Source: Candidatus Poseidoniaceae archaeon (GTDB lineage: Archaea > Thermoplasmatota > Poseidoniia > Poseidoniales > Poseidoniaceae). Taken from it: 64,000 nucleotides of DNA. This document shows positions 41,479-52,293 of the stretch, one piece after another. How positions within the stretch are numbered: the stretch's first letter is position 1; each line of letters opens with the position of its first letter. The notes beneath the pieces were generated by a model. That model was not told where the DNA came from, did no database searches, and saw only the letters and a program-made list of their open reading frames with translations. A program made the position numbers and the translations under genes. The stretch is from assembly GCA_028822845.1 (NCBI GenBank), contig JAPKCS010000005.1, positions 1 to 64,000 on the forward strand. Reading direction: 5' to 3'.

Positions 41479-44400
41479 ATGACGGTACGGGCGGAGCAGA
41501 AATCAATGCGTGTCAAAGGGATGTGCCTCATGTTGCTTTGCTCCATGCTGATGCCCATGATTGGAACCGCTCTGGCAACACCACTCGAATCCGTTGAGCA
41601 AGGAGCCCCCCTCTCGTCATCAGAGCATCATCCAATCATCGATGGCTATTCAGCCACCATTCGCGCTTCAATTGCCTTCCACAGTGACCTCGGACAGTAC
41701 GATGATGACGATATGGCCACAGTTGAGAAGTGGGTCGTCTTTTCCAATCAAGCGATTGGCCAACCGGCCGAACACCTTGACGGCGCTCGCATTGTGGATT
41801 TGATGCCCAGTGAAGCATTTGAAACACTCCATGAATGGCAGACATCAGGGGTCATCGAAGCGGCTTACCCTCTTGTAGAACGGTCAATGGAGCCAAGATG
41901 GACCCCGAACGATCCCAAATTCGACGAACAATGGCATCTTGTCAACACCGGTCAAACCGGTGGCATCAGCGGCGAAGATGTCAACATCACAGGCGCATGG
42001 AACAGCTACAAGGGCGCAGGGGTTGTCATAGGCATTGTTGACGACGGACTCGACTGGAACCATCCAGATATCTTCACAGATTATGATTCCAGCCTCGATT
42101 ATGATTTTTGCAACGACGACGATGATCCCACGCCCACTTCGGGCAACGCTCACGGCACCGCTGCTGGCGGCGTAGCCGCCGCAACTGGCAACAATGGCGT
42201 TGGTGTAACCGGCGCTGCACCAGAAGCAACCCTTGTCGGGCTCCAACTCATCTCATGCAGCACCACAGACGTCCGTGAGGGCAATACCTTGGGCCATGAG
42301 CAACAAGACATTGATATTTATTCGAATTCGTGGGGCCCCAGTGATAATGGAATGACTCTTGAGGGGCCTGGTCCGTTGATGCTTGCAGCTCTTGAAGCAG
42401 GCGCGCTTCAAGGGAGAAATGGTCTGGGTAACATCATTACATGGGCAGCAGGAAACGGACTTGACGACGATGACAATTCGAATAAGGACGGCTATGCGAA
42501 CTTGCGGTACACCATTGCAGTTACCGCTGTGGATCACAAGGGCCAGCAATCATACTACGCTGAACCGGGCGCAAATGTGCTTGTCGCATCGCCCTCAAAC
42601 GGCGACGGGGAGAGCATCACCACCACTGACATCGAAGGATCAGGCGGTTACAGCAGCACCGACTACACCAGCACATTTGGCGGCACCTCCTCTGCAACAC
42701 CGCTCGTATCAGGCATCATCGCCTTGATGCTCGAAGCAAATGCGAACCTCACATGGCGAGATGTCCAACACATTCTGGTCGAAACTTCCAAACAAAACGA
42801 TCCAACTGACACTTCCTGGGCCACCAATGGAGCAGGCCACCTCGTGAGCCACAAGTACGGCTACGGCGTGATTGACGCTGGAGCAGCGGTCGCAGCGGCG
42901 GTCAATTGGGAAACCGCCGATGAAGAAATATCACTTTCTTCGGGGACCATTCAGACCGATCTCGATATTCCTGACCGGGACGAGGGGTACATCGAGGTCA
43001 ACACAACAGTGACAGAAGCGATTCAAATCGAAAACCTGGATGTCATCGTCGACATCCCGCATTCATTCCGTGGTGATCTGGCGCTCACGCTGACAAGCCC
43101 ATCGGGTCACCAAAGCATTCTTTCTGAAAGACACGATGACGAAAACAGCGACTACAACAATTGGCGCTTTGGCTCCGTTCAACACTGGGGCGAAGACAGC
43201 CGAGGCGTGTGGACCTTATCGGTTGAAGATCAAGGCTATGGCGACACGGGGATCCTCGAAGAATGGGAACTGATTCTCCACGGGACACAATTGAACCTCG
43301 ATTCAGACGGCGACAACCTCAGCGACGCCAATGAAACAGATGTCTACGGCACCGACCCCTACGACATTGACACGGACGATGATGAACTGAACGACGGCCT
43401 TGAGGTGCTCGTGTATGGGACAGACCCCCTCTCGGAAGACACCGATATGGACGGTCTTGACGACGGCACAGAAGTGCTCGTGAACGGGACAGACCCCCTT
43501 GACAACGACACGGACGACGACCTTCTTTCTGATGGCGATGAAGTGTACATCTATGGCACGAACCCGCTTGTTTTCGACGCTGACGGCGACTCCGATGGGT
43601 TCTATTGGTTCCAAGATTGCAACGATTCAAACCCAGATGTCTATCCGAATGCTCTCGAGGTGTTGAATGGCATCGATGACGACTGTAACGGCTCTTGGGA
43701 CGAAGGTTTCAACCTCACAGATGCCGATTCAGATGGCCTGTATGATTTTGAAGAGTACCATGGCTATGGCACGGATTGGCAAAACAGTGACACCGATGGC
43801 GACGGTCTTGAAGACGGTGCAGAAGTGGTAATTTACACGACTGACCCACTTGTCAAAGACAACGATTCGGACATGGACGGGTATTATTGGTTCGAAGACT
43901 GCGACGATACCAACGCTTCGATCAACCCCGGCATCGATGAAACATTGGATGGCTTGGACAACAACTGCAACGGAGAAATCGATGAAGACTTCCTCGATAC
44001 AGACTCGGATTTTGACGGGCTGTTGGATATGGAAGAATACCTGACACACGGCACCGATCCGTTTGATCCAGACACCGACGGTGACGGCTTACTTGACGGA
44101 ATCGAACTGCTCGCAACCAACACAGATCCATTGTACCCTGACCTCGACCGCGACGGCGACAGTTACCGCTGGTTCAACGACTGCGACGACAACAACAGCC
44201 TGATTTCACCGAGCGCAACAGAACGCTGGAACGGCATAGATGACGACTGCGATAACCAGATTGACGAAGACATCGACCGCTCCGCTTACATTTCGGCTTC
44301 ACCTCAATTTAGAAGCCTTACATTGAACGCTACCAACGACACCCTCCAACTCTCGCTTTCGATTTCCCTTGATAATCAAAGCCTCGATAGGATCGATCCG

Positions 44401-44916
44401 ACCATTCAGTGGTACAGGAACAACACGTTGATTGGGACAGGGCTCACCTTCGAAGAACAAGCCTTTGACTGTACGTTCCCGGCTTCGGAGTTTGGACGAT
44501 ACCTCTGCGACACCAACGGCACGGTTGGTCCAGAGTTCATCACCGCCACACTCATCGATGAGCGTGGACAAATCAGCGTCAGGTGGTCCATCACATACCT
44601 CGTTTGGAACCCTCCACCACCAGTGGAGCCTCCGGTGATTGAGGAAGATCAATCCAACGCCACAGAGGTGAGCGATTTGATTTCAACGCTCACTTCCAAT
44701 ACGCTGTTAGTGTTTTCAGGCGTGGTTTTTGTCATAGCATTGCTAGCGTTCATAGGAACGCGTAACTCCGGACCGAAGCAACCCAAAAAGAGCGCCTTCT
44801 CATCCCAGCCAACAGCCTACAGTCCCCCCCAATATGCAAACGTACCATCTGCACCTGATTTGTCAAATGCAGGAGCGCCCCCAGCGCCGGATTACAATCA
44901 AGACCGCTGGGGTTGA
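41479..44916 (+). CDS. Secreted, membrane-anchored subtilisin/kexin-like protease
   Basis: The product has 1145 residues. A signal peptide is visible (about residues 10-34; an in-frame ATG at 41506 is an alternative start). The catalytic triad is clear: D in VVIGIVDDGLDWNHPDI (near 190), H in GNAHGTAAGG (near 225) and S in FGGTSSATPLVSGI (near 400). A P (proprotein convertase) domain follows (about 490-595, HSFRGDLALTLTSPSG, GVWTLSVEDQGYGD). Then come calcium-binding-type repeats (DSDGDNLSDANETDVYGTDP; repeated YGTDPL) and three MopE-like DCND...NGIDDDCNG units to about 935. An Ig-like domain, a membrane helix (about 1075-1092) and a Pro-rich cytosolic tail complete it. It is likely to digest extracellular protein or process surface proteins. 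A propeptide probably lies at about 40-125. Confidence 0.93.
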   Translation: MTVRAEQKSMRVKGMCLMLLCSMLMPMIGTALATPLESVEQGAPLSSSEHHPIIDGYSATIRASIAFHSDLGQYDDDDMATVEKWVVFSNQAIGQPAEHLDGARIVDLMPSEAFETLHEWQTSGVIEAAYPLVERSMEPRWTPNDPKFDEQWHLVNTGQTGGISGEDVNITGAWNSYKGAGVVIGIVDDGLDWNHPDIFTDYDSSLDYDFCNDDDDPTPTSGNAHGTAAGGVAAATGNNGVGVTGAAPEATLVGLQLISCSTTDVREGNTLGHEQQDIDIYSNSWGPSDNGMTLEGPGPLMLAALEAGALQGRNGLGNIITWAAGNGLDDDDNSNKDGYANLRYTIAVTAVDHKGQQSYYAEPGANVLVASPSNGDGESITTTDIEGSGGYSSTDYTSTFGGTSSATPLVSGIIALMLEANANLTWRDVQHILVETSKQNDPTDTSWATNGAGHLVSHKYGYGVIDAGAAVAAAVNWETADEEISLSSGTIQTDLDIPDRDEGYIEVNTTVTEAIQIENLDVIVDIPHSFRGDLALTLTSPSGHQSILSERHDDENSDYNNWRFGSVQHWGEDSRGVWTLSVEDQGYGDTGILEEWELILHGTQLNLDSDGDNLSDANETDVYGTDPYDIDTDDDELNDGLEVLVYGTDPLSEDTDMDGLDDGTEVLVNGTDPLDNDTDDDLLSDGDEVYIYGTNPLVFDADGDSDGFYWFQDCNDSNPDVYPNALEVLNGIDDDCNGSWDEGFNLTDADSDGLYDFEEYHGYGTDWQNSDTDGDGLEDGAEVVIYTTDPLVKDNDSDMDGYYWFEDCDDTNASINPGIDETLDGLDNNCNGEIDEDFLDTDSDFDGLLDMEEYLTHGTDPFDPDTDGDGLLDGIELLATNTDPLYPDLDRDGDSYRWFNDCDDNNSLISPSATERWNGIDDDCDNQIDEDIDRSAYISASPQFRSLTLNATNDTLQLSLSISLDNQSLDRIDPTIQWYRNNTLIGTGLTFEEQAFDCTFPASEFGRYLCDTNGTVGPEFITATLIDERGQISVRWSITYLVWNPPPPVEPPVIEEDQSNATEVSDLISTLTSNTLLVFSGVVFVIALLAFIGTRNSGPKQPKKSAFSSQPTAYSPPQYANVPSAPDLSNAGAPPAPDYNQDRWG

Positions 44917-44919
44917 ACT

Positions 44920-47052
44920 TCACTGAGGGGATTGGATAAGACTCCATCCAAGCAGCCGGCCTTCATGTGCATCTGTGATTAAGTTCAGCTGGTTGCTCCA
45001 GCCATCGTTTCCATCCCATGTTCGTGACATGTCGATTGAAACAGCTCCGTCAGCATCGCTGGCAAGGTTGCTCAAGATCGAATTGATGTCACCACCTGGT
45101 ACAACTACCAAGTAACCAACTTGGACGTCATTTTGGTAGGCTCCGTTTGCAGTAAAGAAGAGACCATCGCCACTTAGTTGGTCGAACAGAACATCATTGG
45201 CAAGGCGTTGTTCCATGCTAGAAATATTCATTGTTTCAGGGATTGCTTCTCTGTTGAAAGCAACGCTGTCATCAAAGACGCCCTTTTCTGTGAACTCACA
45301 TGTGCTTTCACTCGGTGTTCCAGTGAGGTTGAACTTGACCCATCCAGCGCTTTCATCAGGGGCGACCCAGGACATGTTCCATTGGCTCCCTTGTTCGGGG
45401 TTTTTGGTCGTGGCTCGCCAAATGTATCCATTGTCATCAAGGGCGTTCGCAGCGCCACTTGCCGCTCCCTGGAAATGATCAAAGCACTGGATTGCTTGTT
45501 CGAAGGTGTGGGTTCGCATCTCACTTCCATCTGGCATGTGAAGGTCATTTGAACCCCATGCGACAAGTTCGGAATCATCGATTTGCAGTTGATTGGCCTG
45601 AGGCCTCGAAGTGTAGGAACGGCCGAGGTCCAACTGCTTTTGTCCCCGAGTGATGGAGGTTCTTTCGAAGACATGATGCAGTTCGAGTTCCCCTTCAGGA
45701 AGGACCAAATCATTGAGAATTTGCGAGGTTGCTGAGCAATCTTGTTGATTTGATTGTGAACTTGAGATGACCACATCGACCTTTTGTTTTGCAGCCCAGG
45801 GGTTGCCTTCCTCGATCCAGAGTTCCATGGTTGCAGAGCCGAGGCAGTAAGTTCGGATGTCTTGATGGGTTGCGACAACTTTCCACGCGGGGGTGTTGGA
45901 AAATTCATCGATGCCAATGACGCGCCATTCCCATCCATTGCCGCTCCCAGTTGCTCCGGCCTCAATCATGCTGTTGCCGAGTAAATCTTCAACTTCGATC
46001 GGTTGCAACATCATGGCAAAACCCGGTGCGAGTGATTCCAATCCACCGAGCAGGCCACCAACGCCGTAACTCACCGTCGTGCCCCGGTATTGTCCAATTG
46101 GTTCAGGCAAATCCACTTCCCAATCTGCATGGGTTGAAAGTGAGGCTTGTTCCCTTAATTCGGTGTATTGCTTCGTGACAATAGACGCACTGCCGTCAGC
46201 GCGAATGAAGGTCGAAGAACATCCATTGAAGGCGTTTGTTAAATGGCGTTGAACGGTGAAACTGTCGAGGGTATTGCTGTTGACGCTTTCCACAGCCAAC
46301 CATTGACCGCCCATGCCGCCCTTGGCGTTCACGGCACCTAAACGGTCCAACGAACCTTCTGCAAACAGCTGACTGCTGCCGCCTTCGGTGATTGAAAGGG
46401 CTCCATCGCCCTCAAACAACAACGAAATTTTACAAATTTCATCGTCGGTATCGAGTTGTTCGAGTGCTAATTCAACAAACCCCTCGGTCGCCAAGAAAGT
46501 TCCATCTTTGACCGTGTAGCGCATGTCGTCACCGTAGCGCAATTGGTCGGCAGTGAATGGGTCAAGTTGGTTGTTGATGAAGTAATATCCACCAGCACCC
46601 AAGATGATGATGGCCATCAGTGCGGCAGCGACCTGTGGGCGTTTGACGATTTCAACCAAGGTTGCTGGTTTCGCATTTTTGGCCGAAGCCTTGGGCGTTG
46701 ACACAACCTTTGTCTTGACCACGTCGGGAACCAAATCTGCATCGAGGATTTCTGCCTCAAGAACGCCATCATCCTCTTCTTCAGGTGTTGGGGCTTCCTC
46801 GAGCTCTTCTACCGGTTCAACTTCGGGCGTGAGGGTGTCCTCATCTTCCATTGAGAGAACAACTTCTTTCTCCGCTTTTTTGGCAGGTGCCACAGTTTTG
46901 ATTTCTTTGAGGCCGACTTCGCCACGGGACAAGCCAGATTCCAGCAACCGATCGACCAATAGACTCTTTTTTCCAGAGGCTGACAAATCGTTAATGATGC
47001 ACAGGGCCTTCAGTTTCGCAACCGTCAAGGTCGATGTGACATCATCGCTCAT
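44920..47052 (-). CDS. SAP-domain membrane protein with large extracytoplasmic region
   Basis: The product has 710 residues. Residues about 8-42 (LTVAKLKALCIINDLSASGKKSLLVDRLLESGL) match a SAP motif, a helix-extended-helix module that usually binds DNA. An acidic region (about 55-125) precedes a single membrane helix at about 140-158 (VAAALMAIIILGAGGYYFI). The remaining 550 residues lie outside the membrane and are rich in beta structure and Trp, with several cysteines, and have no recognised domain. The order places SAP in the cytosol and a long outer domain beyond. It is convergent with the protease gene, and the stops lie 3 bases apart. Confidence 0.7.
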   Translation of the reverse strand: MSDDVTSTLTVAKLKALCIINDLSASGKKSLLVDRLLESGLSRGEVGLKEIKTVAPAKKAEKEVVLSMEDEDTLTPEVEPVEELEEAPTPEEEDDGVLEAEILDADLVPDVVKTKVVSTPKASAKNAKPATLVEIVKRPQVAAALMAIIILGAGGYYFINNQLDPFTADQLRYGDDMRYTVKDGTFLATEGFVELALEQLDTDDEICKISLLFEGDGALSITEGGSSQLFAEGSLDRLGAVNAKGGMGGQWLAVESVNSNTLDSFTVQRHLTNAFNGCSSTFIRADGSASIVTKQYTELREQASLSTHADWEVDLPEPIGQYRGTTVSYGVGGLLGGLESLAPGFAMMLQPIEVEDLLGNSMIEAGATGSGNGWEWRVIGIDEFSNTPAWKVVATHQDIRTYCLGSATMELWIEEGNPWAAKQKVDVVISSSQSNQQDCSATSQILNDLVLPEGELELHHVFERTSITRGQKQLDLGRSYTSRPQANQLQIDDSELVAWGSNDLHMPDGSEMRTHTFEQAIQCFDHFQGAASGAANALDDNGYIWRATTKNPEQGSQWNMSWVAPDESAGWVKFNLTGTPSESTCEFTEKGVFDDSVAFNREAIPETMNISSMEQRLANDVLFDQLSGDGLFFTANGAYQNDVQVGYLVVVPGGDINSILSNLASDADGAVSIDMSRTWDGNDGWSNQLNLITDAHEGRLLGWSLIQSPQ

Positions 47053-47150: not shown

Positions 47151-48206
47151 TCATTCTTCATGCGGGGCGTAACTTCCATCTTCATTTTGAACATAGACGG
47201 TCTGTTCATACGATCCATCTGCTAATTTAGCAAAGAAGAAACCATTCTCAGTCGGCTCATAGGTCACGCCAGTTTCACCAACCGGGTCAACAGACACTGG
47301 TTGCTCCACGGCTGTTTCCTCCACGGCTGTTTCTTCCACCTTGTGTTCTTCTGGTGGTGAGGACGGCGTTGCTGCTTCAGGGGGGCCACTTGGGCCTGAT
47401 GCCCCTGGTGGGCCAGAGGGGCCAGAAGCACCTGGAGGTCCTGCTGGGCCAGCGGTAATTCGCTCGTTTGAAATCGATGCAAGCACCTTGGTTTCAGTGG
47501 TTTCAAGATCGCCTTCAAGAAGTTCCTTGACGGATCCACCGTGCCTTTGCGCTCCAATGAAGGCAAAAGCAGAGAGGCCTAGGCAAATGAGGCCAAGGAC
47601 TCCGGCAATGACTTGGTTTGGATAGACGGCGCCTTCGATGGCCATGCTCGTGCGGCTGTCTCCAATGTTAGCACCATTGCTATCGACGAATTGAACGATG
47701 ACGCAATAGTGGCCAGGATCCAGTTTGAAATCAAACGTGTATTCTCCACCCGCCACAGGTGTTTCTTCATGCAATTCGTATTGGTAACTGTGGTCTGCTC
47801 CACCTCGGGCAAGTTCAGTCTGGGTGCCCAAGTTCTGTGCGCAGTCTTTCTCTTCTAAGGCATAGGCTGCAAGATGAACATCGAGCGCCGCCGGTGGATT
47901 TTGCACCTTTGCGTCGACCGTCAATGGGACATCCATGAAGTCTTCACCTGGCAAGGAAGGCCCCCAGACAAGGCCGATGTCTTTCTCAGCCGAGTTTGTA
48001 AATCCATCATAGTTCTCATCAAATGACATTGGGAATAAAGCAAAGCCAAACATCAAAACAGCGATGCCCAGCCATAAAAAAACATTCCAACGTGACTGTT
48101 TCAAAGCCTCTTGGCGCTGTTCAAGGGTCATCGCTTCCGCTTGCACATCTTGGTCTACGTCAACAGCGGGCTCGGCCGCAGGGACCTCGACCTGTTCTTC
48201 TGACAT
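47151..48206 (-). CDS. Two-helix membrane protein with collagen-like tail
   Basis: The start at 48206 (MSEEQVEVPAAEP) is chosen over the ORF-track start because the latter overlaps the divergent ligase gene. The 351-residue product has a membrane helix at about 41-59 (VFLWLGIAVLMFGFALF), an ectodomain of about 140 residues with three cysteines, and a second helix at about 200-220. The cytosolic tail contains eight consecutive Gly-x-y triplets (GPAGPPGASGPSGPPGAS...) and a Pro/Glu-rich region. It ends with repeated DGSYEQTVYVQNEDGSYAPHEE. The plan matches the genes at 15876 and 16476. The function is unknown. Confidence 0.75.
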   Translation of the reverse strand: MSEEQVEVPAAEPAVDVDQDVQAEAMTLEQRQEALKQSRWNVFLWLGIAVLMFGFALFPMSFDENYDGFTNSAEKDIGLVWGPSLPGEDFMDVPLTVDAKVQNPPAALDVHLAAYALEEKDCAQNLGTQTELARGGADHSYQYELHEETPVAGGEYTFDFKLDPGHYCVIVQFVDSNGANIGDSRTSMAIEGAVYPNQVIAGVLGLICLGLSAFAFIGAQRHGGSVKELLEGDLETTETKVLASISNERITAGPAGPPGASGPSGPPGASGPSGPPEAATPSSPPEEHKVEETAVEETAVEQPVSVDPVGETGVTYEPTENGFFFAKLADGSYEQTVYVQNEDGSYAPHEE

Positions 48207-48261
48207 GAATCGCCCTGTTCCGGGCGAGCACTTGAAAGGCGCGTTCCTTCGTCGGCCGGAT

Positions 48262-49503
48262 ATGAGCATGGGTGACGGAGGTCATGACGCCAACGAAGCG
48301 TCAGATTCCGGACTCAGGCTGGCGATACTTTCCCGAGGGCCGCGATTGTACAGCACCCGGCGCTTGGTTGAGGAAGCTCGAAAGCGTGGACTGGACCCCT
48401 ATGTTGCGGACCCGATGAAGTTCTCGTTGTTTGTAGCCGATGGTCGAATTGATGTGTTGCACAACGGTGAACCGTTCAATTTCGACGCCGTCATTCCCCG
48501 CATTGGCCACTCGATCACCAAACACGGTGTTGCTGTTTTGCGCCACCTTGAGCAGTTGGGCATTTGGACGGCGAACAGCGGTGGCGGTATTCTACAGAGC
48601 CGCGATAAATTGCACGCATCACAAATTCTAGCACGGAACCGACTCCCTGTCCCAAGAACAACCTATATTCGGGACATCATCGATGTTGAAACAGCTGTTG
48701 ATTTCGTTGGTGGGCTTCCCGTTGTCATCAAGGTCACACAAGGCACACAGGGGCAAGGCGTGTTCTTGCGCCATACACTACGAGAGGCGATCAACCTCGT
48801 GCAAGGGCTGCTGCTTACCGGGCGTTCTGTGCTTGTCCAAGAGTACATTGCAGAATCCCATGGCAAAGATGTGCGAGCCTTGGTTGTCGGTGATCGCGTT
48901 GTTGCAAGCATGCGCCGCAAAGCACGTGGCCGGGAATTCCGTTCGAATTATCACTTGAATGGGACGGTCGAGAAGGTGGATTTAGCTCCCGATTTTGTCG
49001 AAGCAGCGTGCCGAGCAGCCCGTGTTCTCGGCCTCCATATTGCTGGTGTCGATCTGCTTGAATCAGAGGATGGACCGCTGGTGCTTGAGGTCAATTCCTC
49101 CCCAGGTCTCGAGGGCATTGAGAAAGCCAGTGGCGTCAACGTCGCCGGCGCAATCATCGATTATGTGATGAGCGAAACTGAATTTTCAGAAGTGGACCTC
49201 GACCAATTATTACGAACCGTTCCCGGTGCAGGCGTTCTCTCACTTCAAATTCGAAACCATCCAAACGTGGTCGGGAAACCGCTTGCAAGTTTGTTCAACT
49301 CAGAAGCCGAAATACCCGTCTTTGCCCTGTCAAGAGATAACAGCTTGATTTGGAACCCTCCGAATGAAATACAGTTGCGCTGGGATGACATACTGGTTTG
49401 CTATGGTGAACTCACAAAACTGAGAGCATCGCTTCGTCAAGCGATCCTCGATGTTTCATCCGATGCACTCAGCATTGACGGGCGCGAAGAGACCAACGCT
49501 TGA
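48262..49503 (+). CDS. RimK-like ATP-grasp ligase
   Basis: The start at 48262 (MSMGDGGHDANEASDSGLRLAILSRGP) leaves 55 bases of divergent promoter region; the ORF-track start at 48064 overlaps the neighbour. The 413-residue product has the RimK-like N-terminal domain (AILSRGPRLYSTRRLVEEARKRG), the ATP-grasp core with LPVVIKVTQGTQGQGVFL (near 150) and VDLLESEDGPLVLEVNSSPGLEGIE (near 265). The last 110 residues form a smaller domain that resembles TrkA-C (LQIRNHPNVVGKPLASL...DNSLIWNP). Relatives add glutamate or amino acids to proteins, coenzyme F420 or LysW. The substrate cannot be told. Confidence 0.88.
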   Translation: MSMGDGGHDANEASDSGLRLAILSRGPRLYSTRRLVEEARKRGLDPYVADPMKFSLFVADGRIDVLHNGEPFNFDAVIPRIGHSITKHGVAVLRHLEQLGIWTANSGGGILQSRDKLHASQILARNRLPVPRTTYIRDIIDVETAVDFVGGLPVVIKVTQGTQGQGVFLRHTLREAINLVQGLLLTGRSVLVQEYIAESHGKDVRALVVGDRVVASMRRKARGREFRSNYHLNGTVEKVDLAPDFVEAACRAARVLGLHIAGVDLLESEDGPLVLEVNSSPGLEGIEKASGVNVAGAIIDYVMSETEFSEVDLDQLLRTVPGAGVLSLQIRNHPNVVGKPLASLFNSEAEIPVFALSRDNSLIWNPPNEIQLRWDDILVCYGELTKLRASLRQAILDVSSDALSIDGREETNA

Positions 49504-49644: not shown

Positions 49645-50754
49645 ATGGAAAAGCGGAGAACAGAACTGCGGCAACGCAAGGCACTGAGACCAAGCCAATC
49701 CAGGCTTGACGCGTCCAGCGTTGATCTCCCTCCTCGTTTGGTTCATCTCGCTGATCTTCCATGGGTGACATGTTACCGTCAAGCCCTGCGTGCTGAAAAT
49801 AAATCCAAAAACACTCAGAAGTCCTACGCAAGTGGTTTGCGTGCTCTGGTTGAAACCACGCTCCCTGGTGAGCAGGTCCTCGATCAAACGGCTTACGACA
49901 CCATGAGCGTTACAGAATTGGCTGACCGCATGGAACCGCTGAATGGGCGCCTTGACCGTTGGACCTTCTCCCTTTCCGAACTCAGACCGACGACCTACAA
50001 TGCTCGCCTCGCAGCAGCAAGGCACCTGCTCAAATGGCTTGGCCATCGCTGGCCAGATCATCTCGTTCGAGCTCGAACGGGTCGCCGTCTTCCTCGAACG
50101 CTCACTCGCCGAGAGATGTCGATGGTCCTCGAAGCCTCTGCTATCAGTGAAAACCCGGTTGCTTCGATCGTCGTCACAATGATGCTCGATACGGGCCTTC
50201 GTGTCAGTGAAGTGTGCAACCTCGACATCAACGACATCGATCTTGAAGATGGTTCAGCAAGGGTGTTTGGGGGCAAGGGCGACAAAGACCGACTGGTTTT
50301 GTTCACCCGCCGAACGCTTGAACGAATCCATGCGTGGATCCCAGTTCGGGAAGCTCGCCGCAAAGGCGACGACTACGCTTTCTTGCTTAATTCAGCAGGC
50401 CGTCGTCTTCAACCTCGCGGTGTTCAACGTCTTATGGATGACCTCGCCGTTGATGCAGCGCTCCCTAAAGGAAAACTCACACCTCACGTTCTTCGCCACA
50501 ACTTTGCGACAGGCCTCTTGGAGCGGGGGGCGGATCTTGTGACCATCCAGCGGTTGTTGGGCCACTCCAGCATAGCCACCACTCGCGTCTACCTCGAAAT
50601 TTCGGATCAAACACTCCGGGAAGTCTACCACCGAGCTCAAGCCACCAGGGAAACACTCGAAGCTGCAGCCGAAGCCAGTGAGAATGTGCACGCTGTCGAA
50701 GAGGTCACACCTTCCACAAGTGCTTACGGTGTTGAAGAATCACATTCGCTTTGA
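49645..50754 (+). CDS. XerA-type tyrosine recombinase
   Basis: The product has 369 residues. The N-terminal core-binding domain (about 40-140) is followed by the catalytic domain with DTGLRVSEVCNL (first arginine, near 190), the lysine in GGKGDKDR, HVLRHNFATGLLERGADL (H-x-x-R, near 284), LLGHSSIATTRVYLE (histidine and catalytic tyrosine, near 310). Such enzymes resolve chromosome dimers at a dif-like site. No partner gene or obvious att site is visible. Length and motifs suggest a chromosomal recombinase rather than a mobile-element integrase, though integration cannot be excluded. Confidence 0.9.
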   Translation: MEKRRTELRQRKALRPSQSRLDASSVDLPPRLVHLADLPWVTCYRQALRAENKSKNTQKSYASGLRALVETTLPGEQVLDQTAYDTMSVTELADRMEPLNGRLDRWTFSLSELRPTTYNARLAAARHLLKWLGHRWPDHLVRARTGRRLPRTLTRREMSMVLEASAISENPVASIVVTMMLDTGLRVSEVCNLDINDIDLEDGSARVFGGKGDKDRLVLFTRRTLERIHAWIPVREARRKGDDYAFLLNSAGRRLQPRGVQRLMDDLAVDAALPKGKLTPHVLRHNFATGLLERGADLVTIQRLLGHSSIATTRVYLEISDQTLREVYHRAQATRETLEAAAEASENVHAVEEVTPSTSAYGVEESHSL

Positions 50755-50786: not shown

Positions 50787-51305
50787 TCACTTCTTCGGCT
50801 TGAACCAAGGCATGTCACGAACGCTTCGTGGAACCTTGAGCGTCGATCCTTTTCGGTCGCTGCTCTTTTTGCTTGGAACGGTTTTGCTGCCAGCGCTCGT
50901 CGCCTTTGCAGCAGTTGCTTTTGCAGCAGACTTTGCTTTTGCAGCGGTCTTTTTGGTTGCTGAGGCCGCTTTCTTGGCGGTGGATGTGGCGACAGTTTTT
51001 GCTTTGGAAGTTGATTTTACAGCGACCGTCTTTGCCTTTGCAGCGGTCTTCTTGGTTGCTGAGGCCGCTTTCTTAGCGGTTGATTTGGTGGCCGTTGTGG
51101 CCTTTTGTGCTGCCTTTGCAGCCGAGCTGACCTTGGTAGCGATGGCAGCGCTCAAACCAGCGTCTTGAAGCTTCTTTGCGCCGGCACCAGCGATCTTACT
51201 CACGCTGTCCAATTTAGCAGCAATGAGTTTCTTTGCTGTTGCTGCACCAACACCGGGCAATGCAGTCAATGTTTCAATCTTAGAGGAACCCTTCTTCGCA
51301 GCCAT
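50787..51305 (-). CDS. Helix-hairpin-helix protein with histone H1-like tail
   Basis: The start at 51305 (MAAKKGSSKIETLTALPGVGAATAKKLIAA) is chosen; the ORF track adds 43 residues that overlap the next gene. The 172-residue product has one or two helix-hairpin-helix modules at about 9-60 (LPGVGAATAKKLIAAKL, AGAGAKKLQDAG). About 80 residues then repeat Lys and Ala in patterns such as AKKAASATKKTAAKAK, as in histone H1 and bacterial Hc1-like proteins. The end is KVPRSVRDMPWFKPKK. It should bind DNA and could act as a nucleoid protein. The tail is strongly biased in composition, so homology of the tail is not implied. Confidence 0.8.
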   Translation of the reverse strand: MAAKKGSSKIETLTALPGVGAATAKKLIAAKLDSVSKIAGAGAKKLQDAGLSAAIATKVSSAAKAAQKATTATKSTAKKAASATKKTAAKAKTVAVKSTSKAKTVATSTAKKAASATKKTAAKAKSAAKATAAKATSAGSKTVPSKKSSDRKGSTLKVPRSVRDMPWFKPKK

Positions 51306-51408
51306 TGTCTCACTTACCCGACCATAGGAGGCGACCCACTTCAATTCTTCTCCCACTCCCACTCGACAAAGGGGTCGCATTGATGGGTCGGTCGACCAAC
51401 CGACCACC

Positions 51409-52293
51409 ATGACAGAGGGGGGTTCAGCCAACATGACGACCCGAATTTTCGCCCAAGTCCTGCGCGCAAGTGCGAGTCATAAAGTGGAACAGGAAAGTCA
51501 ACTTCTGCGGCCAAAGGGATACACACTGCCAAGCAATGCAGTTTACCTTGGCGATGTGATGACTGCGCTTCTGGCAAACCTGTCCCAACCCGACACCCCT
51601 CATTTCCCTCAACCACCTGGGTTTAACGAGCAACGGTGGACCTTGACAACTCAAAGCGGCCCGCTCGGCCTTCGGGTAGAATCTCACGCCTACTGGGGCT
51701 TCGGTTTATTCAATTCTGGTTATCTGAACGTCATCGAACTGACTGGACCATACAGCCAACGAATGCGATTAATGTTTGACTTAAAAGCCTCGATAGGGCG
51801 GAATCCTTGGGAGTTTCAACACCGCAATGCTGCTCTGAAATGGCTTGCTAAGAACCACCCAACTTCAACCGTTGAGACCAATGAAGCACATTGGCGAGAA
51901 AGCTTGTCGGCTGCGCAACGGGAGTTTGAAGCTTCGATCGAAGTGATCGAACAACGTTCCAAAATTGTTGAGAAGCGAATGAATGCTGAGAAAAACAGCC
52001 AAGAGTGGGTGTTGGAAAAAGCGCAGGTCGCCTTTACCTCTGCCCAATGTGATCTGGACATCGCCCGCAACGCTCTGGCGGATGAGAACGCTCCGGGATT
52101 GGAACGAGCGCTTGCTCGCGTCGAGGCCGCTCTCATTGAAGCAGATCCGGGCACGGGACTTCTGTCCTCAGACTTTGACGCTTCAGCCCCAGAAGAACTG
52201 CGGCTGAGAACCAAAGCCAATGAAGCACATGCACCTTCTTTTTCTGACTTGGAAATCGTCGACCTCACCAGCCCGGGTGAGGAAGAAGAGTGA
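51409..52293 (+). CDS. Uncharacterised protein with C-terminal coiled coil
   Basis: The product has 294 residues (ATG at 51409, or 51433 giving MTTRIFAQVLRAS). The first 150 residues mix strands and helices (RWTLTTQSGPLGLRVESHAYWGFGLFNSGYLNVIELTGPYS). A charged helical part (about 160-235) has heptad-like spacing. The end is acidic (SPGEEEE). No membrane segment or motif is recognised. It is divergent from the HhH gene by about 100 bases. Confidence 0.65.
   Translation: MTEGGSANMTTRIFAQVLRASASHKVEQESQLLRPKGYTLPSNAVYLGDVMTALLANLSQPDTPHFPQPPGFNEQRWTLTTQSGPLGLRVESHAYWGFGLFNSGYLNVIELTGPYSQRMRLMFDLKASIGRNPWEFQHRNAALKWLAKNHPTSTVETNEAHWRESLSAAQREFEASIEVIEQRSKIVEKRMNAEKNSQEWVLEKAQVAFTSAQCDLDIARNALADENAPGLERALARVEAALIEADPGTGLLSSDFDASAPEELRLRTKANEAHAPSFSDLEIVDLTSPGEEEE

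Follow-up and report, generated by a model that had tools for sequence, protein, structure and literature searches.

The window analysed here, a stretch of DNA of 64,000 nucleotides, was assigned through named relatives to Ca. Poseidoniaceae, marine group IIa (MGIIa). On its minus strand lies the ORF of a 710-aa single-pass membrane protein, in which a SAP domain is followed by an acidic linker, a membrane helix and an outer domain:

44920..47052 (-): ORF of the 710-aa single-pass membrane protein, with ATG at 47052 and stop at 44920
46939..47034 (-): SAP domain, residues 7–38 (PF02037, 26.7 bits, cut-off 23.9)
46708..46920 (-): acidic low-complexity linker, residues 45–115, from D/E-rich composition
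46732..46764 (-): linker motif VLEAEILDADL, residues 97–107, with A100 and E101 kept in at least 90% of 39 orthologues
46579..46635 (-): membrane helix, about residues 140–158, with K/R just before it, from hydropathy
44923..46578 (-): outer domain, residues 159–710 (552 aa), predicted to be beta-rich, with six invariant Cys

This confirms the layout proposed in a sequence-only reading of the same DNA, in which a SAP motif, an acidic linker and one membrane helix precede an outer domain of about 550 residues. The protein is conserved across the order Poseidoniales, whose members count among the most abundant archaea in the plankton of surface waters and are without cultured representatives (PMC6461757). 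Of 60 related genomes, 56 have an orthologue (E ≤ 0.01), and across 194 genomes sampled from the whole phylum the outer domain was matched in 46 Poseidoniales genomes, with two more matches in the Poseidoniales search being to SAP alone and no orthologue being found outside the order. The aligned set consists of 39 orthologues drawn from both Poseidoniales families. Those of the sister family (f2, presumably the former MGIIb, Ca. Thalassarchaeaceae, judging by order membership) are just 23–30% identical to the 710-aa protein. Orthologues with the same layout, which the sequence-only reading had proposed to look for, do exist; SAP is present in all 39 of those aligned, from both families.

The SAP domain was matched by Pfam PF02037 with E = 4.2e-6, above the curated cut-off, and Pfam found nothing besides SAP in the 710-aa protein up to E = 1. 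The match is more than chance, since all 39 orthologues match PF02037 individually (E ≤ 0.1; best E 3e-12), including those of the lowest identity, and SAP is present in every f2 orthologue read from its start. Residues L14, G27, K29 and R35 are invariant in the SAP of all 39 orthologues, and the latter three sit at the start and core of SAP helix 2. SAP is the best-conserved block between the two families: its mean identity is 40%, whereas the linker has 21% and the outer domain, taken in thirds, 24–31%. The best PDB profile matches of the 39-member profile are likewise the SAP domains of Tho1, MKL1, Hcc-1 and DEK. Structure modelling gave helices at residues 12–22 and 28–38 of the SAP region in a full-length AlphaFold model (shallow alignment, pLDDT 47.7), and at residues 4–24 and 31–38 in a short N-terminal model of low confidence (shallow alignment, pLDDT 60.9); Foldseek with this 54-residue model returned no match. 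The predicted SAP identity is thus supported by sequence profiles and by no structure model. No non-SAP fold was obtained, and on the strength of the profiles the earlier assignment of a SAP motif to the N-terminus holds. The 710-aa protein may accordingly be placed in the SAP domain family (PF02037; Tho1/SARNP, PIAS/SIZ1, DEK, MKL1), which it resembles in its match over the cut-off, its invariant G-K-R core and its PDB profile matches. Whilst these named members are soluble nuclear or regulatory proteins, SAP here forms the cytosolic end of an archaeal membrane protein. We infer that its ligand would be DNA.

Only one segment of the 710-aa protein exceeds the hydropathy threshold (about residues 135–158), and the mean peak hydropathy over the orthologues is 2.14 at the helix versus 1.35 in the outer part. 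This outer part contains 30 K/R, 79 D/E and 6 Cys. The cysteines, at positions 207, 278, 403, 439, 523 and 585, are present in 39/39 orthologues, with no further Cys column common to the outer parts of the 39, and all six lie beyond the membrane helix, a pattern that fits disulfides in a putatively exported domain. The positive-inside rule gives weak support to SAP being inside, with 20 orthologues for this orientation, 11 against and 8 equal. The stronger topology argument is the comparison across SAP membrane proteins. Because SAP recurs in Poseidoniales opposite unrelated outer domains (peptidase, Ephrin_rec_like), it is likely to be in the cytosol. An M28 peptidase in the window's own genome (L127) has an N-terminal SAP before its helix, and in an S8 subtilase (L161) and a protein with Ephrin_rec_like repeats (L091) SAP is C-terminal, after the helix; in all three, SAP and outer domain are on opposite sides of the helix. 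In two further proteins (L122, L105) SAP is found across the helix from domains without assignment. Between them, the cysteines and these unrelated proteins support the cytosolic placement of SAP given by the sequence-only reading, and no opposite topology was obtained.

Three of these proteins (L091, L122, L161) are a mirror image of the 710-aa protein, having a large N-terminal part, a membrane helix and a cytosolic tail that ends in or contains SAP; L122 has weak EF-hand matches too. As for the outer domain of the 710-aa protein, the full-length AlphaFold model is beta-rich there, at the low confidence already given for this shallow alignment. Profile searches of Pfam, NCBIfam and PDB found no relative of it, the matches being only to SAP or sub-threshold. 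The possibility of internal repeats, raised by three neighbouring Cys pairs, was rejected after hhalign of the three outer-domain thirds gave probabilities below 1%.

The linker is strongly acidic, with 20 D/E and 0 K/R in residues 66–110, and over the 39 orthologues it varies in length from 46 to 112 residues, with 36% D/E and 6% K/R. Within this fast-evolving region, A100 and E101 are kept in at least 90% of the orthologues, as part of a motif of the pattern [VI]LEAE[IV][LF][DE]A, or in a wider form [VI][LFM][DE]AE[IV][LFVM][DE]A. A strict DNA pattern for this motif gave ~55 matches in 50 genomes, versus 3 for the reversed (control) pattern, and most of these fall in orthologues of the 710-aa protein. 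Of the other matches that were examined, several belong to membrane proteins (a P-type ATPase, an M28 peptidase, one-helix proteins), in tails presumed to be cytosolic. This may plausibly point to one cytosolic partner common to these proteins. Matches in soluble enzymes (GcvPB-like, ThiF-like, epimerase-like) were treated as chance. The form [VI][LFM][DE]AE[IV]..[DE]A was seen to recur in unrelated membrane proteins of Poseidoniales, again in tails presumed to be cytosolic; among them are P-type ATPase, M28, S8 and others (L074, L075, L170, L184, L188, L161, L081, L129, L155).

On the 5' side of the 710-aa gene, the window contains the following:

47151..48269 (-): protein with a membrane segment and a collagen-like GPPGxSGP stretch, upstream on the same strand; collagen-like match below cut-off
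48265..49503 (+): RimK-family ATP-grasp ligase, divergent, start approximate (PF08443, 8.8e-52)
49645..50754 (+): Xer-type tyrosine recombinase (NF040815 XerA_Arch, 191.4 bits, below the cut-off of 220)

Both families show synteny on this side, over the RimK-like ligase, the Xer recombinase and other genes. The collagen-like protein is a conserved neighbour in Poseidoniaceae, with a similar protein in some sister-family genomes, and the ligase is syntenic in all Poseidoniaceae and at several sister-family loci. The Xer recombinase is conserved near the 710-aa gene in both families, and is divergent rather than co-oriented. Adjoining it at 50787–51434 (-) is a protein with a helix-hairpin-helix and a lysine/alanine-rich, histone-H1-like tail, possibly a chromatin protein.

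On the 3' side, many relatives carry a gene that the window does not have in this place. In 25/25 genomes where both genes were found, the next gene downstream, co-oriented and 11–178 bp away, encodes a ParA/Soj-type ATPase. These comprise 22 genomes of f2 and the Poseidoniaceae genomes G120, G153 and G169 (genera g14 and g15). The neighbouring ParA was matched by Pfam AAA_31 with 179 bits, and its best NCBIfam match, "ParA family partition ATPase", has 84.8 bits, below the cut-off of 180. Its N-terminal extension carries a string similar to the linker motif, PLVIDVEFTEVEEE or VVEAEFEEIE. Two matches to the string KGGV (L204, L205) were rejected as ParA: one of them is aminotransferase-like, and the other is a spurious reading frame on the strand opposite the 710-aa gene.

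The gene after ParA in f2 genera g5, g7 and g9 and in Poseidoniaceae genus g15 encodes a protein of 148–173 aa starting with KRGLGRGLDDLLAQHDTDLPFL or a close sequence, and the peptide of the small protein in g14 is GGRGLDHLM. Several other f2 genera have the GLGRGL peptide at the head of an EamA transporter. A peptide of the GLGRGL type is therefore found in the next gene of many, not all, ParA-bearing genomes, with no recognisable one in the gene after ParA in several of them. GLGRGLxxLL is presumably the ParA-stimulating motif of the ParB N-terminus. In bacteria, a short N-terminal ParB motif of aliphatic and positively charged residues suffices to stimulate ParA (PMC12462528). Pfam gave no match at all in the third gene of the cluster, and ParB_N had no match in the window genome and weak, scattered matches in 4/11 genomes. 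EamA-type transporters led by this ParB-N-terminus-like peptide were observed directly behind ParA at loci L197, L199, L212 and L219.

Poseidoniaceae genera g1, g11, g12, g13 and g16 have no close ParA, and only a distant one is left (E about 1e-30). The window genome has no adjacent ParA, and its distant ParA is encoded on a different contig, next to an IF2-like gene. Despite the loss of ParA, the small protein directly follows the 710-aa gene in several of these genera, for example in genomes G084, G107, G163, G166, G181, G208 and G093, and in the window's genus its gene has moved elsewhere. Where ParA is gone, the peptide of the small protein reads ERGLDHLM or QRDLDHLM, the complete GLGRGL form being seen only alongside a retained ParA. 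The simplest account would be an ancestral three-gene cluster from which ParA was lost in most Poseidoniaceae, with decay of the peptide. As most Poseidoniaceae have lost ParA, the window genome would represent an anchor without its ancestral motor, and since it is without an adjacent ParA the module is not obligate. In the place where relatives have ParA, the window has a subtilase at 41479–44916 (+). Besides its P-domain it carries repeats of the MopE copper-binding-like and TSP3 types; a membrane helix comes next, and then a tail rich in proline.

The explanation that we favour, tentatively and at somewhat less than even chances, is that the 710-aa protein serves as an envelope anchor for the nucleoid, ancestrally within a ParB-less ParA module. 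The cytosolic SAP would bind chromosomal DNA, probably with little sequence specificity, with the long acidic linker acting as a flexible arm to span the gap and its conserved EAE motif docking a cytosolic partner. The single helix would hold the anchor in the membrane, and the disulfide-braced outer domain would fix it to, or position it in, the cell surface. Its ancestral partners would have been the ParA-type ATPase encoded directly behind it and the ParB-like GLGRGL peptide, which may trigger ATP hydrolysis by ParA. Together with the GLGRGL activator, ATP-bound ParA could set up a gradient on the nucleoid. Moving there, and with no ParB clamp involved, ParA would spread or position either the sites anchored in the membrane with respect to the chromosome, or chromosomes with respect to the membrane. 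ParA would later have been lost, and the anchor kept, in the majority of Poseidoniaceae, among them the source of the window.

In favour of this anchoring role, SAP is found in every orthologue and is the part best conserved between the families, and ParA adjoins the gene in 25/25 genomes; the Xer recombinase as a conserved neighbour was also counted for it. Conservation of a neighbourhood can, however, reflect shared transcription only. Counted against it were the absence of any outer-domain relative from the searches above, the low-confidence models, the recombinase not being co-oriented, and the ParA-bearing genomes whose next gene shows no GLGRGL peptide. Chromosome tethering, one of the roles suggested in the sequence-only reading, is strengthened by the adjacent ParA gene of relatives and weakened by the window genome being without that ParA. 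DNA uptake, which was suggested as well, can be set aside, as no feature supporting it was found.

The soluble carriers of SAP in the class were also counted against an anchor to DNA. With E ≤ 1e-5 there are 4–8 SAP matches per genome in 21/21 sampled genomes of the class, versus 0–1 elsewhere in the phylum. SAP fusions in Poseidoniales involve eL32 and eS1 of the ribosome as well as Pus10 and an FKBP-type isomerase, and in family f3 of the same class, probably marine group III judging by its position, the carriers are eS1, uL24, HEAT-like and other soluble proteins. For Poseidoniia as a class, the observation of SAP on eL32, eS1, uL24, FKBP-type isomerase and Pus10 was made over loci L001, L002, L003, L005 and L130–L143. 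These fusions suggest RNA or ribosomes, and because SAP is fused to ribosomal proteins in this class, the ligand may be RNA. SAP might then be an RNA- or ribosome-binding tag by which mRNAs, or ribosomes in the act of translation, stay close to the membrane, or by which membrane insertion is coupled to translation; we regard this as possible but unlikely. Such a generic tag would be expected on membrane proteins with unrelated outer functions, as is observed, and Tho1, which is among the closest solved SAPs by profile, is a component of mRNP biogenesis (PMC5095910). The conserved ParA neighbour is left unexplained by it, however, as are the C-terminal SAPs, which are made last, and the ribosomal proteins could equally reach DNA via their SAP.

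The ParA neighbour can also be explained without chromosome segregation, if the nucleoid serves ParA in spacing the 710-aa protein along the cell, with SAP contributing no more than affinity for the nucleoid. ParA does adjoin the 710-aa gene with no ParB gene beside it, some genera have the GLGRGL peptide joined to EamA, a membrane transporter, and ParA-like ATPases are known to position non-DNA cargo, e.g., McdA, whose partner McdB has no relation to ParB (PMC9178275). The persistence of the 710-aa protein without that ParA in most Poseidoniaceae speaks against its being mere cargo, and we consider this explanation quite improbable.

Reception of a signal from outside is quite improbable as well. 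A one-component receptor of the ToxR/CadC kind, in which a ligand sensed by the outer domain makes the cytosolic part with its SAP switch its binding at promoters, would have the modular order seen here of cytoplasmic DNA-binding domain, linker, single helix and outer sensor (PMC6320335). SAP nevertheless takes the place of the OmpR-type winged helix, no winged-helix domain being found in the 710-aa protein or its 39 orthologues; the outer domain matches no sensor family in Pfam or NCBIfam, peptidases of the same topology carry SAP too, and the neighbour in relatives is ParA, with no target operon shown. SAP domains are, moreover, usually no promoter-specific readers.

Returning to the nucleoid anchor, among its closest counterparts in plan are the HeH/LEM proteins of the inner nuclear membrane (Src1/Heh1, MAN1, Lem2; PMC6240307), which likewise have an N-terminal helical module binding nucleic acid or chromatin, a long linker, a helix and a domain across the membrane. 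The 710-aa protein differs from these in its prokaryotic plasma membrane and unrelated outer domain, and the likeness is of layout alone, with no evidence of homology; membership was rejected, as no HeH, LEM or MSC match was found in the 39 orthologues (E ≤ 0.1). With ParABS, SegAB and McdAB the locus shares, in relatives, an adjoining ParA-type ATPase gene and a peptide like the ParB N-terminus in the following gene. It departs from ParABS in having no ParB domain at the locus, an added SAP membrane anchor, and the loss of ParA in the window's lineage. More speculatively, and unlikely to hold in full, the SAP anchor, ParA and the GLGRGL activator could together form a ParB-less chromosome-to-envelope system of Poseidoniales, tethering or segregating the nucleoid through a surface-reaching protein as a prokaryotic analogue of the HeH/LEM tether, with a single cytosolic hub to which the shared EAE motif brings ParA and further membrane proteins. 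Chromosome segregation and placement in archaea outside Sulfolobales are largely unknown, and the SAP membrane protein, ParA and GLGRGL protein are a concrete, order-wide gene set that can now be named.

No such combination was known in archaea to the sequence-only reading. This stands for the searchable literature, in which nothing was found that joins the SAP domain with Poseidoniales, and in which no paper, by title and abstract (SAP domain, transmembrane, archaea), has an archaeal SAP membrane protein as its subject. It does not stand within Poseidoniales, where the combination recurs and the order habitually equips surface proteins with a cytosolic SAP. None of the 14 SAP loci examined in f3 has a membrane helix, and SAP on membrane proteins looks like a Poseidoniales invention. 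Several small SAP proteins (L107, L115, L117) were also found to have multiple helices, some of them with a zinc ribbon.
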